Assembly: GCF_020283565.1 (NCBI RefSeq)
Contig: NC_060060.1
Coordinates: forward strand, 10,974,001 to 11,038,000
Source: Trifolium pratense
Taxonomy: Eukaryota; Streptophyta; Magnoliopsida; Fabales; Fabaceae
Direction of reading: 5' to 3'
DNA length: 64,000 bases
Made by a program: the position numbers and the translations under genes. Under the pieces are notes generated by a model. That model saw only the letters and a list, made by a program, of their open reading frames with translations. It had not been told where the DNA came from and ran no database searches. Each line of letters starts with the position of its first letter. The first letter of the stretch is position 1. Positions 13,848 to 64,000 of this stretch are shown here, in pieces.

Positions 13848-14148
13848 TCTTAGACTAAATTTAGGAAAAATTCGGAAAATGTTCTTTTTCAAGGCATTTT
13901 TTTTTTTGAAAAACAGGTTCCGAATGTTTTTAAGGACCAAACTGATTAACGGGGATGTCTTTAAAGGACCTATTCGAACCTTTTTTTTCTTTCTTTAAGG
14001 GACTTATTCGGTCTTTTTTTTCTTTAAGGGATCAATATTAAACCAAAAATATATTTAAGGGATCATTTTACTAATTAAACCTTAAAAAAATTATATTTTG
14101 AGACGTGATCTATAGTATGTAGCTCAATGGATATTGCGTAACATGTAA

Positions 14149-15070
14149 GGGCCCGTTTGGTGCACAGGATAAGAGACAGGATATGATAACTATATCATAT
14201 TCTGTCTCAATCCAGTGTTTGGTGACACAACAAGATATGATAAGTTAATCCTGAAGTTTATCCTATCATGTTTCTCTAGTTAAAATCCTTATCCTGAATT
14301 TGAGCTGGGTTACCAGCAGGATAGGATAAGAAAAAAAAAATCGTTGATTTATTCTATAAAATATATTTTAAAATAAAAAATTGAAAATTAATAAAATAAT
14401 TTGATAGTAAATTAATAATAAAATAATTAATTTTTAAATATATATGTGATTTTCTCACAAGGGTAATTTTGTAATTTATATAATCTAAAAAATAAAAATT
14501 CTCCTAAAATTACAATATTTTAAATTAAAATAATTATTAAAAAATTGCAAAATAAGAATATTAATTTAAATTTAATAACAACTTAAATATAATTCTTTTG
14601 CAATGGTAGTTTTATTATTTACATATATCATATATTTATTTAGCTTATCTAACATGTATAATTGAGTTATTTATTTGATCATGATTCATATAAAAAATTT
14701 AATTTGTTTATTTTCTCATGATTTGTATTTAAAATTTAAAGTTATTTGATTACTTTTTCTTTTTGTACAATTACTTATTTATATTTTTATTTATAAAATT
14801 CAAAGTATTACGATATAATTTTTAACAAATAACAATTATTTTACGAGGGTAATTTTGTCATTTAAATATGTTATGTATCTTATCATATTGGTATGAACAA
14901 ATATGTATTAAAAATATGATATAATAGTTATCATGTTTGTTATCCTGTGTGCACCAAACACAGGATAGGATAACCGAGGATAACTGATATCCTGCTGATA
15001 TCATATCCTATCACTATCCTGTTATATATCCTATCCTGTCACTATCCTATCCTGCGCACCAAACGGGCCC
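14149..15070. mobile_element. PIF/Harbinger-like MITE, 922 bp
   Basis: Ends GGGCCCGTTTGGTGCACAGG and its inverse (TGCGCACCAAACGGGCCC), flanked by TAA at 14146-14148 and 15071-15073. Further in, both arms are rich in variants of GGATATGATAAC. TAA duplications and G-rich TIRs are typical of PIF/Harbinger. No transposase. A damaged copy lies at 46773. Confidence 0.88.
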
Positions 15071-23222: not shown

Positions 23223-24216
23223 GGCTTAAAAGCAGTTTTGCCCCCCCTATTTTGATTAAATCGGAATTTTACCCCCCCTGTTTTAAAACGCGGACTTTTA
23301 CCCCTCCTGTTTTATAATTTTTTGGATTTTGCCCCCCCTAATATTCTGCTTTCGAGTCACAACTTTAAAGTTTCACACACAACTCAATTTTGATCAATAA
23401 TTCACCAAAAGGATACCGAAATGACCGTAATCGAGTTATCTTTTCACATAATCAAACCCCACTGAATTTGGAGTTACAAAGAGAGATTAATTACAGTTTT
23501 AGTGAAGGTATATCCCCCAAAATTCTGCAAAAAATCTGCTTTCGAGTCACAACTTCAAAGCTTCGCATACAACTCAATTTGGATCCATAATTCACCAAAC
23601 GGCTACCGAAATGACCGTAATCGAGTTAGCTTTCCAAAGAATCAAACCCCACTAAATTTGGAGTTACAGAGAGAGATTAATTACCGTTTTAATAAAGGTC
23701 TGTCCAATTACTAATTCTGCAGAAATCTCCTTGTGATCTTCAAATTCAACATCGTCTACCGAACACATCATAACTCCAAATTCGACGAAATTGAAATTCC
23801 AACAAGGATAATTTCGTTAGATTTCCATACATGTAAATAGTATTAAAAATGAGCTACAGGGTGAGAGGAATGACGAAAATACTAGTAGTAGTTTCATACT
23901 ATAATTAATTTGAATAGACCTTCACTAAAACGGTAATTAATCTCTCTCTGTAACTCCAAATTTAGTGGAGTTTGATTCTGTGGAAAACTAACTCGATTGC
24001 GGTCGTTTTGGTACCAATTTGGTGAATTATTGATCCAAATTGAGTTCTGTGCGAAGCTTTGAACTTGAAGTTCAGAAGCAGATTTTGTGCAAAATTTTGG
24101 TGGGGTGCAAAATCCAACAAATTATAAAATAGAGGGGGTAAAATTCCGCATTTTAAAATAGGGGGGGTAAAATTCCGCATTTTTCAAAATAGGGGGGGTA
24201 AAACTGCATTTAAGCC
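23223..24216. mobile_element. Mutator-like element (MULE) with long TIRs, 994 bp
   Basis: Ends GGCTTAAAAGCAGTTTTGCC and, inverted, GGCTTAAATGCAGTTTTACC, followed in both arms by CCCCCCTATTTT units. The TIRs extend for roughly 300 bp. The 9-bp duplication AAAAAGAAA is perfect at 23214-23222 and 24217-24225. The left arm carries an internal ~190-bp tandem duplication (units starting CTGCTTTCGAGTCACAACTT near 23347 and 23538). No transposase; all ORFs here are spurious. Confidence 0.93.
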
Positions 24217-46648: not shown

Positions 46649-47727
46649 CACAAAAATGACAACTTTTTAAGAAGTTTGATAGACAACTTCTTAACATAAA
46701 TTTTCCATTTTTGTTTTCTTGATAAAAATATTTTGAGTTCAATTTAATAGTTCAACTTATTTAAGTTATTAAGGGCCCGTTTGGTGCACAGGATAAGAGA
46801 CAGGATATGATAACTGTATCATATCCTGTCGCAATCCAGTGTTTGGTGATACAGCAGGATATGATAAGTTAATCCTGAAGCTTATCCTATCCTGTCTCTC
46901 TAGTTATAATTCTTATCCTGAATTTGAGCTGGGTTATCGGCAGGATAGGATAAGAAGAAAAACAAATTACTGATTTATTTTATAAAATATATTTTAAAAT
47001 ACATAAAATAAAATTAATAAAATATAAATAATAAAATAATTAATTTTTAAATATATATGATTTTCTCACAGGGGTAATTTTGTAATTTATATATTCTAAA
47101 AAATCAAAATTTTACTAAAATTACAATATTTTAAAGTAAAATGATTATTAAAAAATTGACAAATAGGGATATTAATTTAAATTTTATAAAAAATTAAATA
47201 TAATTCTTTTGCAATAGTAATTTTATTATTTACGTATGAGATATATCATATATTTATTTGGCTTATCTAACATGTATATATTATTGAGTTATTTATTTGA
47301 TCATGATTCATATAAAAAATTAAACTTGATTATTTTCCCATGATTTTTATTTTAAATTATATAAAGTTATTTGATTACTTATTTATATTTTTTATTTATA
47401 AAATTCAAAGTATTAGAAAATAATTTTAAAAAAATAACAATTGTTTTACAAGAGTAATTTTGTCAATTAAATATGTTATATATGTTATCATATTATTATG
47501 AGCAAATATGTATTAAAAACAAAATATAATAGTTATCATGTTTGTTATCCTGTGTGCATCAAACATATGATATGATAACTGAGTATAACTGTTATCCTGT
47601 TGTTATCCTGCTGTTATCCTATCCTATCCTTATTCTGTTTTATATCCTATCCGGTCACTATTTTATCAAGAAAACAAAAATATTAAGAAGTTGTCTATCA
47701 AATTTTTTAAAAAGTTATGATGTAGGA
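46649..47727. repeat. Inverted repeat around a broken Harbinger copy
   Basis: GTTTGATAGACAACTTCTTA (46676) and TTTTTGTTTTCTTGATAAAA (46708) on the left are mirrored at 47664-47720 (TTTTATCAAGAAAACAAAAA; TAAGAAGTTGTCTATCAAAT). The arms bracket the Harbinger fragment at 46773. Confidence 0.7.
46773..47668. mobile_element. PIF/Harbinger-like MITE, second copy, right end lost
   Basis: Begins GGGCCCGTTTGGTGCACAGG after TAA and follows the copy at 14149 along its whole length. It stops at CCTATCCGGTCACTATTTTA, about 25 bp before the expected right end, so the right TIR and its TAA are gone. Confidence 0.85.
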
Positions 47728-57718: not shown

Positions 57719-58638
57719 TTAGTTTATCTCATCGGTGAGAAAGGCCTTTTTGATTTTGCTAAGCTCTCTAGTGACATCTGCAATATTCATTCTTTCTTTT
57801 GGTGATTCGATAGAACAAATAATTCCAATCCTAAAAAGTGAAACTAAGCACTCTTCAATAGTTGGAATGAGATTCTGACGATTTCCATCATGTATTGCTA
57901 CTTCTACATCTCTTGATACAAGATGTGGGTCTAAAATCTTGATAAGGTTATCAGGAAATGAAATTGCAACAAAATTATGCAGATTTTGACCATCTTCAAA
58001 AACTTCATCAGTAGGTCTTCTACCGGTAAGTATTTCCAACACGAGGATTCCAATTTTCCAAAGCTATACATGTCACCACATGTGGAAACTTCAGAACCCA
58101 TTCCGTACTCTGAAACATTTAGAAAAACCTGTTAATACTATGTATGTCACTAGTAAATTATTGAGTCTGCACCAAAACATAGCAGAGAAACAATGTATGA
58201 TTCAAGAATTTAGAACATACCTGGAGGAGCATACCCAACAGTTCCTTTTATTCCAATTGAACTAGTATCCTTCCGAGAGCTGCCGCCAATGGATAAGACA
58301 AGTCTTGCTATTCCAAAATCACTCACATGAGCAACCATATCATCATTAAGAAGGTCATTGTTTGGCTTTAGATCACAATGAAGGACCAATTGCTCACATT
58401 CTTGGTGGAGATAATGTAATGCATCAGCAACATCGATAATTACGTTTAATCTTTGACCAAGGCCCAATTTTGTTGGATGCTCTTCATTTAAAATCTCGGG
58501 ATGCAACCATTGTTCTAAGCTTCCATTTTTCATGTAATAAAAAACTAAAGCTTTGAATTCTTGACCTTTGTAATCTGTACTAGAACAACAAGTTAAAATC
58601 TTAACTAAATTTCGGTGTCTAATATTTTTGAGTGCATT
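57719..58638 (-). pseudogene. LRR-XII receptor kinase, 3' part of kinase domain (gene A, C-terminal half)
   Basis: On minus it starts at NALKNIRHRNLVKIL directly after the 180-bp element and runs through YYMKNGSLEQWLHP, LHYLHQ, a non-RD-type HCDLKPNN loop, DFGIARL and GTVGYAPP. An intron follows (donor after 58220, acceptor near 58115), then YGMGSEVSTCGDMYSFG and LEILTGRRPTDEVF to the stop at 57719. One base is missing after MYSFG, breaking the frame. Upstream LRR and N-lobe are absent here; they lie inverted at 60864-62408. EFR/Xa21-class receptors are pattern-recognition kinases; this one cannot be made as it stands. Confidence 0.85.
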
Positions 58639-58818
58639 GGATCCAGATTTGCTGCAGTAAATATTAACACAGTTTCCCGCTGTTTCAAATCACAGCCACT
58701 GATTTCTGATCGGACAGCTGTGATCAATCTATCTGTATTCAATCCAAGCCACTGATTCAGATCGAACGGTCCTTGGCTGTTACAGCGTCCTGCTGTAACA
58801 GCAGGAAATCCGTTTCCC
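58639..58818 (-). mobile_element. 180-bp element E, left copy, at inversion breakpoint
   Basis: Reads GGATCCAGATTTGCTGCAGT at the left and ends AGGAAATCCGTTTCCC; it is the inverse of 62409-62611 apart from a 23-bp duplication there. The ends are weak inverted repeats (GGATTTCCTGCTG against AGATTTGCTGCAG). Non-coding. Confidence 0.85.
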
Positions 58819-59026
58819 ACATCTTGTATCAAGAGATGTAGAAGTAGCAATACAAGTTGGAAATAGTGAGAATCATATTCCAACTATTGAAGAGTGCTTA
58901 GTTTCACTTTTTAGGATTGGAATTATTTGTTCAATGAAATCACCGAAAGAAAGAATGAATATTACAGATGTCACTGAAGAGCTTAGCAAAATCAAAAGAG
59001 CCTTTTTCATTAGTGAGATAAACTGA
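58819..59026 (+). pseudogene. LRR-XII receptor kinase C terminus (gene B, displaced end)
   Basis: Reads (P)HLVSRDVEVAIQVGN ... TIEECLVSLFRIGIICS ... SKIKRAFFISEIN and stops at 59024-59026. It is closely similar to the end of gene A (57719-57940) but lies on the opposite strand. Its 3' flank (GTGCTTCTTCTTGATTGAAA, TTTCAGGTGTTCAC) is also shared with the flank of gene A, showing two paralogous gene ends now facing each other. Confidence 0.85.
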
Positions 59027-60863
59027 TATTTTGATATGCTTATTTGAATCAAAACAAACTTATTAATTATATGTCGTTATAGTTTGAATTTGCTAATCTT
59101 ATTGTGCATTTCAAATTCCTAAACAGTAAAATAGAATGGTAATAATGTGCTTCTTCTTGATTGAAATTTCAGGTGTTCACACTCATAATTATAATTAAGG
59201 TTCCTCATTGATCCCTTAACAAAGTCTAAATAAGAAAATCATAGTAATAGTCATAATAAGGTTTACTAGAAAGTTTAAGCCTAAGAATTATAATAAGTTT
59301 TTTTGCATTATGGATATGTAGTCATATGATGAAACCTAAAAAACTATTTGACAATCCTATAAATAATATTTGAGCATTGAAAAATATGAACCAGATTACT
59401 TTTAAAAGAAATACATGTTCAACTTGGATTAGTCAATCTCTCTCAATCAGCAAATTGTTACCTCTAGATTAATCTAAGGGTTGAAAAATTAAAAGTTTGC
59501 ATTAACATAACCATAAAATACTCAAACAAATCCTCTTTATTCAACCAAAATAGACTCAAAGGCGGTTGAGCCGTTTCTTCATCCTCTTCGATCAATTTTC
59601 TCATTCTCTTCGATCAATTTTTCCATGGAGGTGGCTTTGCAAATTCCATCAATTTTTACATCTCTTTGCTATTTTTTATTTTAAATCTTACCTATGACTC
59701 TTGGATGATGTTTTAGTGGTGTTGATTTAAAGCTTGTAACATTTTTTAAAGCTTGTAACATGGCTGTGTTATGATCAACTTGGTGTTGGAGGCTTTTGCT
59801 TACTTACCATTCTCTGCAGCCACATAGCGTGTATAATATACATAGGTATGTATATGAACAAGAAAAGACAAGAGGATGAATATCGAATCACCGGAGTCTG
59901 GATGAGTTGCAGACATGGACAACACATATTCTACGTATCGAGGAGATAGATGCGAACATAAGGGGCCAAAATTGTCACAGGTTGACTTGGGTAAAATTGA
60001 CCTTTTGCAAAAAAGTTAAAAATAAGGGGCAAAAGAATGCTATTTTGAAAATTAACCGGACAAAATTATAAATTTTTAAAATATAGAAGACCAAAAGTGG
60101 AGTTTAATCAAAAAATCAACTCAGATAGCTTGCCCGCCCCACATAGCTTGGCTTTGTCTGCCAGTTTTCTACCCCAAAAGGCACGATGATATCAACTTGG
60201 AAGTTAAAGACGACCCGATACTGAAGACTCACAACTCACAAGTTCTCAAGTCTCGGATTATTTAATCATCAATTATCAAATAATCGATTATCCCAAAACT
60301 TTAAGGTGTTAGGATAGAGTCATATCAATGATTTTATAATATTTCTAACATCAATTCAAATTGTTGTTCCGCTGTTCCTTCATTGTCATCACCATTTTCT
60401 TTGTAACTCACCCCTATATATATTTAAAACAGCAATGTTATACTGGTATTTACTTTCTAAAAAAATTTGGTCCCATGTGCCATACTACTACTCTATATCA
60501 ATTGACTTGACTTTTCAGTATAAATTTTTTTTTTTCTAATCTTACACTTTCTTAAATTAAGGGTATTTATTCATCAACTAATGAGAAGCAATATGAAAGT
60601 CCACATGTGCAAATTCAAAAGTTTGTTACAAATTTGTTGTGAGTACCATATGTAAATCCACTCGTGTGGTTTGTTCTTATGAAATAGTAGAGTAGGCCTC
60701 ACTTTTTTTTGTGTGTGTTTTAATAAAAATTTGAATTTGCATTCTTTGGCACTAGCTCTTGCCACCAGTACTATTTAAATGCATGCCTGTATCCTCTATA
60801 TTCCCACAAAGCTATCAAACACAAACAAAACTAAATAGCAAAAACATCTTTCTTCTAAGGCAA
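59027..60863. other. Intergenic segment inside the inversion
   Basis: 3' flank of gene B followed by the promoter side of gene A's 5' half. No gene. A TATA-like ACTATTTAAATG lies near 60770. The stretch near 60120-60200 is GC-richer and unidentified. Confidence 0.45.
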
Positions 60864-62408
60864 ATGATATCTTTTTCTTTGTTGTCACCTACACTTGTTT
60901 TCATGTTTACCTTAAATTTAATGTGCTTTGACCCAAACAAAATGGTGGCAGTGTCTGCAATATTAGGAAACCAAAAAGATCATTTTGCATTGCTGAAATT
61001 CAAAGAATCAATTATATCCAATGATCCATATGGAACTCTTGAATCTTGGAATTCTTCCATCCATTTCTGTAAGTGGCGTGGAATCACATGCAACCTGATG
61101 CATCAAAGAGTTATAGGATTGAACCTAGAAGGACATGAGTTACATGGATCTTTATCTCCACACACATGTTGGTAATCTCACTTTACTGAAAAATCTCAAC
61201 CTTCAAAATAACAGCTTCTATGGAGAAATCCCACAGGAGTTAGGTAAATTGCTAGAATTGAAACTACTTTATCTCACCAACAACTCTTTTGGAGGTGAAA
61301 TTCCTACAAACTTGACATATTGCTCCAATCTGGAAGACTTAATTTTGGGAGGGAACAATCTAATGGGCAAAATACCAAATGAAATTTATTCTTTGAAAAA
61401 ACTTAAAGTAATGGCGTTTCACAAAAACAAATTAACCGGAGGAATCCCTTCATTCATAGGGAATCTTTCAAGCTTAATGACTTTTTCGGTTTCTTATAAC
61501 AACATAATATGTTCCAAGGAAATATTCCTCCAAGCATAGGAAACTGTCAAAAATTACAATATTTAGAACTTTCACATAATAAGCTTAGAGGAACCATACC
61601 TTCAGAGGTTTTCACTCTTTTTTCTTTATCAAACTTATTGAATTTGTCACATAACTCATTGAGTGGGAGCTTACCAAGAGAAGTGGGTTTGCTGAAAAAC
61701 ATTGATGTACTAGATATCTCCGAGAATCATCTCTCTGGCGATATTCCTACAACAATTGGTGAATGTATAAGCTTAGAATACCTTTATTTGCAAGGTAACT
61801 CCTTCAACGGAACAATACCATCCTCTTTTGCATCTCTCAAAGGTCTTAGATATTTAGACCTTTCAAGAAATCAATTGTCTGGATCAATTCCTGATGTTAT
61901 GCAAAATATCACTCTTTTAGAACATTTGAATGTATCTTTTAACATGTTGGATGGTGAGGTACCAACAAATGGTGTCTTTGGAAATGTAAGCCAAGTAGAA
62001 ATGATTGGAAACAATAAGCTTTGTGGAGGTATTTCATTGATGCATCTACCACCATGCCCTATCAAGGGTACGAAACACACAAAACATTATAAATTCAGGT
62101 TGATAGCAGTGACAGTTAGTGTGGTTTCTTTTATTCTCATACTTTCATTCATTATAACTATCTACTGGATGAGGAAAAGAAATCAAAAACGATCTTTTGA
62201 TTCACCTACAATTGATCAACTAGCTAAGATTTCATACCAAGAATTGCATCAAGGAACTGACGGGTTCTCGCCTACAAACTTGATCGGATTAGGAAGTTTT
62301 GGTTCTGTCTACAAAGCAAATCTTGTGTCGGAAGATCATGTTGTTGCCGTAAAGGTCCTGAACCTCCAAAAAAAGGGAGCTCACAAGAGTTTCATTGTTG
62401 AATGTAAT
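60864..62408 (+). pseudogene. LRR-XII receptor kinase 5' half (gene A), truncated
   Basis: Signal peptide (MISFSLLSPTLVFMFTL), LRRNT (DHFALLKFKESI ... SWNSSIHFCKWRGITC), leucine-rich repeats, LCGG cap, membrane segment (~FRLIAVTVSVVSFILILSFI) and the kinase N-lobe with LIGLGSFGSVYKA and VAVKVLNL, ending at SFIVECN. Frame breaks occur near 61165 and 61505. At the second, FSVSYNN jumps straight to FQGNIPPSIGNCQ, so roughly half of the ~20 LRRs usual for this class are missing. The normal continuation (ALKNIRHRNLVK) lies at 58638 on the other strand. Confidence 0.88.
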
Positions 62409-62611
62409 GGGAAACGGATTTCCTGCTGTTACAGCAGGACGCTGTAACAGCCAAGGACCGTTCGATCTGAATCAGTGGCTTGGATTGAATACAGATAGTG
62501 GCTTGGATTGAATACAGATAGATTGATCACAGCTGTCCGATCAGAAATCAGTGGCTGTGATTTGAAACAGCGGGAAACTGTGTTAATATTTACTGCAGCA
62601 AATCTGGATCC
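62409..62611 (+). mobile_element. Element E, right copy, 203 bp, at inversion breakpoint
   Basis: GGGAAACGGATTTCCTGCTG ... CAGCAAATCTGGATCC. It equals the left copy plus one extra 23-bp unit (TGGCTTGGATTGAATACAGA followed by TAG). It replaces the kinase codons expected after SFIVECN. Confidence 0.87.
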
Positions 62612-63298
62612 CAAGATGTGGATCTAAAATCTTCATAAGGTTATCAGGAAATGAAATTGCAACAAAGTTATGCAGATTTTGACCATCTTCAAAACTTCAT
62701 CAATAAGTCTTCTACCGGTAAGTATTTCCAATACCAGAATTCTAAAACTATACATGTCACCACATGTGGAAACTTCAGAACCCATTTCGTACTCTAAAAC
62801 ATGGAGCAAAAGCTATTAATTATGTCACTAGTAAATTATTAAGTCTGCACCAAAACATAGGAGAATTAATAGAAACAATGTATGGTTCAAGAATTTAGAA
62901 CATGCCGGGAGGAGCATAACCAACTGTCCCTTTTATTTCGATTGTACTTGTATCCACAGTATCCTTCTGAGAGCTGCCGCCAATTGCTAAGACAAGTCTT
63001 GCTATTCCAAAATCACTCACATGAGCAACCATGTCATTATCATTTATCAAGAAGAACATTGCTTGGCTTTAGATCACAATAAAGGACCAATTGCTTACAT
63101 TCTATATGTAGACAATGTAATGCAGAAGCAACATCGATAATGATGTTTAATCTATCTGAGGTTCAAGATTGTTCGAGGCTCTGCATTTATTATCTCTGGA
63201 TGCAACCATTGTTCTAAGCTCCCATTTTTCATGTAATCAAAAACTAAAGCTTTAAATTCTTGGCCTTTGTAATCTGTACGCAAACAACATGTTAAGAT
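62612..63298 (-). pseudogene. LRR-XII receptor kinase middle part (gene B), antisense, decayed
   Basis: On minus, downstream of the copia LTR: TDYKGQEFKALVFDYMKNGSL-type sequence, then a YCDLKPSNVLL loop with a frame break, DFGIARLVL, GTVGYAPP and the PTDE region. It ends at CCACATCTTG (DPHL) where element E begins. The continuation of the gene lies at 58819-59026. Several small gaps and stops; clearly non-functional. Confidence 0.82.
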
Positions 63299-64000
63299 TG
63301 TTGGTGTAAGCCCTAGAGGCCAATTATTTATAATTGCATGATACTTGTATTGGATAATTTACTTATTAAATAAAGACTTTTCTTTATTATGTTTATGTGT
63401 TAAATAATAATAGAGTCCTTAGAATAGTAAGTTCATTGAATGGAACGTTAAGTGTGACTTAATCGTGAGAGTCCATTACACATAAGAACACTATTCTTAA
63501 AACATCCGTAGTCGAGCTTTAATGTGAATTGGGATAACATCAAAACATAGAGACTATTATGTTGGTAGACTGATGATCACATCTCACGGATCATAGATAA
63601 AGAGTTATCAAGTCTTCACATAGATATAAATATTAAGAGTAATATTTATATCGGATTGACCCACCATGAGAATACTACATAGTATGTTATGAAATGTCAT
63701 AGGATATTCTCATAGTGATAAGTGGTGTATTCCACCCTTCGACCTGAAACCACTATGTTCCCTAGATGTAGGAGTGTAGTACTTTGTCGCCATTCAAAGT
63801 TATCCGTAACAGAATGACTATAAAGTTGGTTGATGGGTATTCCACGAATCATGCTAAGGGACATGAGTGACCTAGATGGAATTTACCCCTCCTACATAAC
63901 AGGAGATATGTCTATGGGCCCAATATTGAATTTAACAAGGGTGACGTACTATGCCTTGTGTTCAATATAGACATAAGGGTAAAAGGGTAATTATACACAT
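63299..64000. mobile_element. Ty1-copia LTR, left end, running off the window
   Basis: Starts TGTTGGTGTAAGCCCTAGAG directly inside kinase remnant B; start TG and the following AT-rich body with GACCCACCATGAGAATAC words are typical of a long plant copia LTR. The right end and the target duplication lie beyond the window. Confidence 0.7.

Follow-up and report, generated by a model that had tools for sequence, protein, structure and literature searches.

An inversion of ~3.59 kb, bounded by two copies of a short repeat, element E, appears to have swapped segments between two receptor-kinase genes in tandem, here called A and B, in Trifolium pratense; on the comparisons described below, we put the probability of this reading at about 0.95. 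The inversion lies in the window, the whole stretch of 64,000 nucleotides that was analyzed (C2:10974001-11038000, contig NC_060060.1), in a genome of 413,558,439 bases and 90 contigs. The original prediction had proposed that an inversion between E copies shuffled the two genes, and this is borne out by 28 paralogues, six paralogue loci and a crosswise target-site duplication (TSD).

Breakpoints and gene order

The two genes are arranged head-to-tail on the minus strand, B upstream of A, and the flipped stretch (58818-62409, no strand assigned) reaches from a site in gene B (site B) to a site in gene A (site A). Each breakpoint carries one copy of E. At breakpoint 1, E1 (58639-58817, plus strand) has the gene A kinase on its left and the gene B 3' end on its right; E2 (62410-62611, minus strand), at breakpoint 2, is inverted with respect to E1 and contains an internal 23-bp tandem duplication. 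The copies had been predicted at 58639-58818 and 62409-62611, and they are indeed there, with bounds that comparison with other family members refined to those given here. Their inverted arrangement and the crosswise flanks across 58639-62611 are likewise as predicted.

As the sequence stands, neither copy has a TSD: E1 is flanked by CATT from gene A and CACATCTTG from gene B, and E2 by CACATCTTG from gene B and CATTACATT from gene A. When the segment is re-inverted in silico, the E of gene B gains an exact 9-bp TSD, CACATCTTG, whose halves lie beside E1 (58818-58826, plus strand) and beside E2 (62612-62620, read on the minus strand); an 8-bp duplication had been expected at this position. The E of gene A gains only a 4-bp duplication, AATG (62406-62409 and 58635-58638), and a full new 9-bp TSD is absent from gene A. 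The gene A side of site A (62401-62409, plus strand) reads AATGTAATG, the last four bases of which are repeated as AATG on the minus strand at 58635-58638, on the kinase side; in most paralogues the site reads GAATGTAATGCACTC, uninterrupted. The 9-mer AATGTAATG itself holds AATG twice (AATG-T-AATG), and a 5-bp deletion between these repeats could have yielded the observed 4 bp. Both ends of E adjoin gene A exactly, so the joints in gene A look transposase-made.

A search of the genome for the kinase listed 41 matches, all on C2, C4 or C7 (40 of 71 candidates scored). For comparison we used 28 kinase paralogues (L045-L049 and L051-L073), out of the 39 matches listed besides the window's own two. 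Most of the listed paralogues form a cluster at C2:15.05-15.77 Mb, ~4 Mb away, in which the related LRR receptor-kinase genes are on the plus strand at 15.05-15.30 Mb and on the minus strand at 15.33-15.44 Mb. Site A is uninterrupted in 27 of the 28 paralogues, the exception being L060, which has no recognizable site A in the stretch examined, and site B is uninterrupted in all 28 (in L069 the alignment covered just the right portion of the probe, with the site included). Genes A and B themselves fit this pattern: gene A has no interruption at site B, nor has gene B at site A, which is found beyond an LTR element (see below).

We also compared HSPs longer than 100 nt between the locus and six chosen 10-kb paralogue loci (L074-L079). 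The present order gives HSPs of mixed orientation, minus ones included, and the flipped-back order gives plus HSPs only, at all six loci. After re-inversion the halves of gene A overlap by 4 bp at every locus, and those of gene B overlap by 10 bp at five; at L077 the gene B alignment continues into E. No gene sequence was lost at site A or site B by comparison with these loci. Because the paralogues are uninterrupted at both sites and the six loci align colinearly only once the segment is flipped back, the flipped-back order is the older one and the present order derived. An ancestral present order is ruled out by the counts of uninterrupted sites given above, and a chance origin of the pattern by the exact 9-bp crosswise match together with the colinearity at six of six loci.

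Inverted repeats can mislead assemblers, and the E copies could in principle have caused a false flip. We consider such an assembly artefact very improbable, since E, at ~180-203 bp, is far below long-read length and a near-identical second copy of the locus, or a second haplotype, is absent from the kinase matches listed (40 of 71 candidates scored). The sequencing basis also argues against it, provided that the assembly is the red clover assembly whose available description gives 413.5 Mbp, PacBio HiFi reads at ~55-60x and QV 49 (PMC9650271).

Genes A and B

The 5' half of gene A (60864-62409, now on the plus strand) encodes the LRR region, the transmembrane segment and the start of the kinase, and its frame changes near 61170 and 61505. 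Relative to five of the six paralogue loci, ~0.7 kb of its LRR sequence is missing. The 3' (kinase) half (57719-58638, minus strand) ends in a stop at 57719-57721 and includes an intron in the kinase region that was read by eye. Pfam families LRR_1 and LRR_8 match at 61509-62408, and PK_Tyr_Ser-Thr and Pkinase at 58222-58638; the third piece of the gene, 57722-58048, has no Pfam family match. Gene A thus combines LRR repeats with a kinase domain, as in an LRR receptor-like kinase, and the closest solved chain by sequence is FLS2.

For gene B, comparison with the paralogues places the kinase middle at 62612-63298 (minus strand) and the 3' end at 58818-59035 (plus strand), inverted away from its own kinase middle. 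Its 3' flank (59036-59416, plus strand) is paralogous to the gene A 3' flank as far as 59191, and from 59201 to 59416 to the flank of L078; the predicted extension of the gene-end paralogy into both 3' flanks accordingly holds. In a separate event, gene B was split by an LTR retrotransposon that begins at 63299 (63299-64000 in the window, plus strand) and runs to 71625 in coordinates continued past the window (C2:11037299-11045625). This element has LTRs of 1308 bp that are 99.3% identical and a 5-bp duplication, AAGAT. Gene B resumes directly after it, and homology ends at ~71680. The upstream end of gene B adjoins a stretch (~71684-72200; C2:11045684 on) that by eye resembles a Ty1-copia gag-pre-integrase remnant. 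The LRR half of gene B was not found up to 94000 in the continued coordinates.

Judging from these lesions, both genes are pseudogenes. The claim that re-inversion would yield two complete gene orders was thus too strong, given the frame changes and the ~0.7-kb LRR gap in A and the split in B. As both genes are broken, the functional outcome of the inversion is nil or a loss.

We considered whether the LRR half could be that of gene B; this is ruled out, as gene B has its own uninterrupted site A beyond the LTR element. Across distances to the paralogues, the LRR half correlates with the gene A kinase pieces at Spearman 0.65 and 0.69 and with the gene B pieces at 0.39, 0.51 and 0.57, in a test that is weak and partly contrary, two neighboring gene B pieces correlating at only 0.06. 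One gene B piece tracks the 3' kinase part of gene A at 0.85, which would be expected if the paralogues exchanged sequence.

Element E and the origin of its two copies

In E1 and E2 the element runs from GGATCC to GTTTCC, matching its family members. A genome search for the family gave at least 42 matches (40 of 130 candidates scored), from which 38 further copies were retrieved; 23 of these are full length by the script criterion and the other 15, which are not, were left out. Left ends of the family copies read GGATCC, GGACCC or GGATCT, and right ends GTTTCC or ATTTCC in 21 of 23. The terminal inverted repeats are imperfect, with 13 of 17 terminal bases matching by eye. Exact TSDs of 9 bp flank 14 of the full-length copies and exact TSDs of 10 bp flank four, so that 18 of 23 have the TSD expected of a MULE-type MITE; among the rest, one has a single mismatch in 9 bp, one (L029) a TSD shortened to 6 bp, and three have none. 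A 9-bp TSD is a mark of Mutator-like elements, and because of this duplication E is best called a MULE-type MITE.

Other repeats were observed in passing. One copy of E, L008 (C1:9185675-9185872), has part of one end repeated. Nine E-like ends of 148 nt (L019-L027) have nearly identical flanks, and for this reason an E-like end seems to be embedded in a larger dispersed repeat. Elsewhere in the window, a direct repeat of ~0.85 kb (14146-15002 and 46770-47607, 32.6 kb apart) consists of pieces that are mostly 85-93% identical, and at 23223-24216 repeats of 115-194 nt, some direct and some inverted, overlap in a cluster.

The sole difference between E1 and E2 is the 23-bp tandem duplication in E2; substitutions are absent. 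By comparison, six other young copies (L002-L006 and L008; L007 was excluded, one of its ends being replaced) differ from one another, in all 15 pairs, at 3-7 of 180 columns, or at 2-7 inside the element, the last column being the first base of the TSD. E1 and E2 further share a private A: none of the 23 copies readable at this base among the 38 retrieved has it (12 have G and 11 have C). An exact 34-nt probe with the private A matches only E1 and E2 in the genome, although it would miss a copy with the A plus another change inside the probe. Under random insertion, the expectation for a pair among nine young copies to fall within 4 kb of each other is ~7e-4, rising to 0.015 for 40 copies and 0.16 for 130 copies. 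From the lack of substitutions, the private base and the low expectation of such proximity, E1 and E2 very likely share a recent common origin.

Mechanism and comparison with known systems

We give an even chance to the proposal that a one-step hybrid-element insertion made the inversion. E, flanked by its 9-bp TSD, would first have resided in gene B. Following DNA replication, transposase would have joined the GGATCC end on one sister chromatid with the GTTTCC end on the other, and the joined ends would have inserted into gene A. With each end still tied to its old neighbor through the rest of its own E, the segment would flip and E would be doubled, so that the two breakpoints would end up with identical copies in inverted orientation. 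In gene A, the new TSD, AATGTAATG, would later have been shortened by 5 bp between its two internal copies of AATG, and the 23-bp duplication in E2 would have to postdate the inversion. The origin of the copies, their orientation and the inversion would thus be explained together. The larger claim, that a non-autonomous 180-bp Mutator-type MITE actively made the inversion by a single hybrid-element transposition, thereby rearranging two immune-receptor-like genes in tandem, we place a shade below even odds.

According to the available part of PMC2775673, hybrid-element insertion can produce an inversion flanked by two identical copies, and inversions made in this way look like those made by recombination, except that the copies are identical in the former and chimeric in the latter. 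Apart from the 23-bp duplication, identical inverted copies are what the clover breakpoints carry, and hybrid-element insertion fits the E1 and E2 data at least as well as recombination does. Against the one-step model, the 4-bp duplication in gene A requires that a later 5-bp deletion be assumed, and sister-chromatid Ac/Ds transposition is described, in the part of PMC8225341 available, as giving inverted duplications and composite insertions, with simple inversion not among the products named.

The original prediction favored recombination (NAHR) between E copies that genes A and B already carried in inverted orientation. On this route, which we put at somewhat below even odds, the identity of the copies would stem from gene conversion or from a recent local copying of E. 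Recombination predicts an inverted copy at each breakpoint together with crosswise duplications (PMC2775673 and PMC8225341, in the parts available), and inverted copies with exchanged TSDs are found, with the full 9 bp in gene B but only 4 bp in gene A. The short gene A duplication weakens recombination and hybrid-element insertion equally. The chimeric pattern that would prove recombination is not seen between E1 and E2; this is a weak point against it, because with no substitutions between the copies there are no variable sites at which chimerism could show. The lack of substitutions and the base common to E1 and E2 alone also make two independent insertions unlikely. Recombination needs one event more than the one-step model, and the repeats available to it are only ~180-203 bp long. 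Nevertheless, a local E copy made by ordinary transposition and followed by recombination could give the same flanks and the same identity, as could recombination in which all 180 bp were converted.

Double-strand breaks followed by end joining could also be invoked, in which case E would lie at the breakpoints by chance or have been copied through staggered breaks; breaks of the latter type can produce an inverted duplication at either end (PMC8225341, in the part available). At both clover breakpoints, however, what is duplicated corresponds exactly to E, family ends included and without flanking gene B sequence, which makes this origin very improbable. Reversed-ends transposition from two separate sites is disfavored because no gene sequence was lost.

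Inversions bounded by transposons are a known kind of event, and the T. pratense case is unusually easy to read: it is a natural plant inversion with transposon copies at its bounds, resolved to the base, and empty target sites are kept in tens of paralogues. The locus can therefore help to distinguish active transposition from passive recombination, and a simple population test would be whether E occurs on uninverted chromosomes just in gene B or in gene A as well. It is also an example of the decay and rearrangement that receptor-kinase clusters undergo; a direct effect on the plant is not expected, as both genes are pseudogenes. If the hybrid-element reading is true and comparable events happen often, MITEs within receptor clusters would drive gene shuffling themselves instead of acting as passive substrates of recombination. 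Among the titles and abstract beginnings listed from the open-licence literature, we found no report of a MULE MITE inversion in receptor-kinase genes.

The closest known systems each share part of this pattern, as far as the accessible portions of the papers describe them. In Drosophila buzzatii, inversions with Galileo likewise have inverted copies of a cut-and-paste element at both breakpoints, exchanged TSDs and single target copies at each uninverted site (PMC2775673). The Galileo copies are chimeric, which has been read as strong support for ectopic recombination, whereas E1 and E2 are identical in substitutions; the clover inversion, moreover, is 3.6 kb long and lies inside two tandem paralogues. 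Alternative transposition of maize Ac/Ds likewise leaves element ends at both breakpoints and a TSD that matches across the inversion, and inversions both by recombination and by reversed-ends transposition are described there (PMC8225341). Ac/Ds elements are hAT transposons with 8-bp TSDs, in contrast to the 9-bp TSDs of the MULE-type E, and two linked elements contribute their ends while the intervening fragment is lost, whereas the clover sites lost no gene sequence. For the P element of Drosophila, the hybrid-element model predicts an inversion with two identical inverted flanking copies if ends drawn from sister chromatids or homologues act together (PMC2775673); that element belongs to the P superfamily, and in clover hybrid-element insertion is only inferred. 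VANDAL5 of Arabidopsis, a MULE, is like E a Mutator-like element, and its paracentric inversion (PMC5664140, PMC12312487) placed one end into a gene and left the other at the donor site, similar to the route proposed for clover, although that inversion spans 1.17 Mb as against 3.6 kb and was made with VANDAL5 as opposed to a 180-bp MITE.
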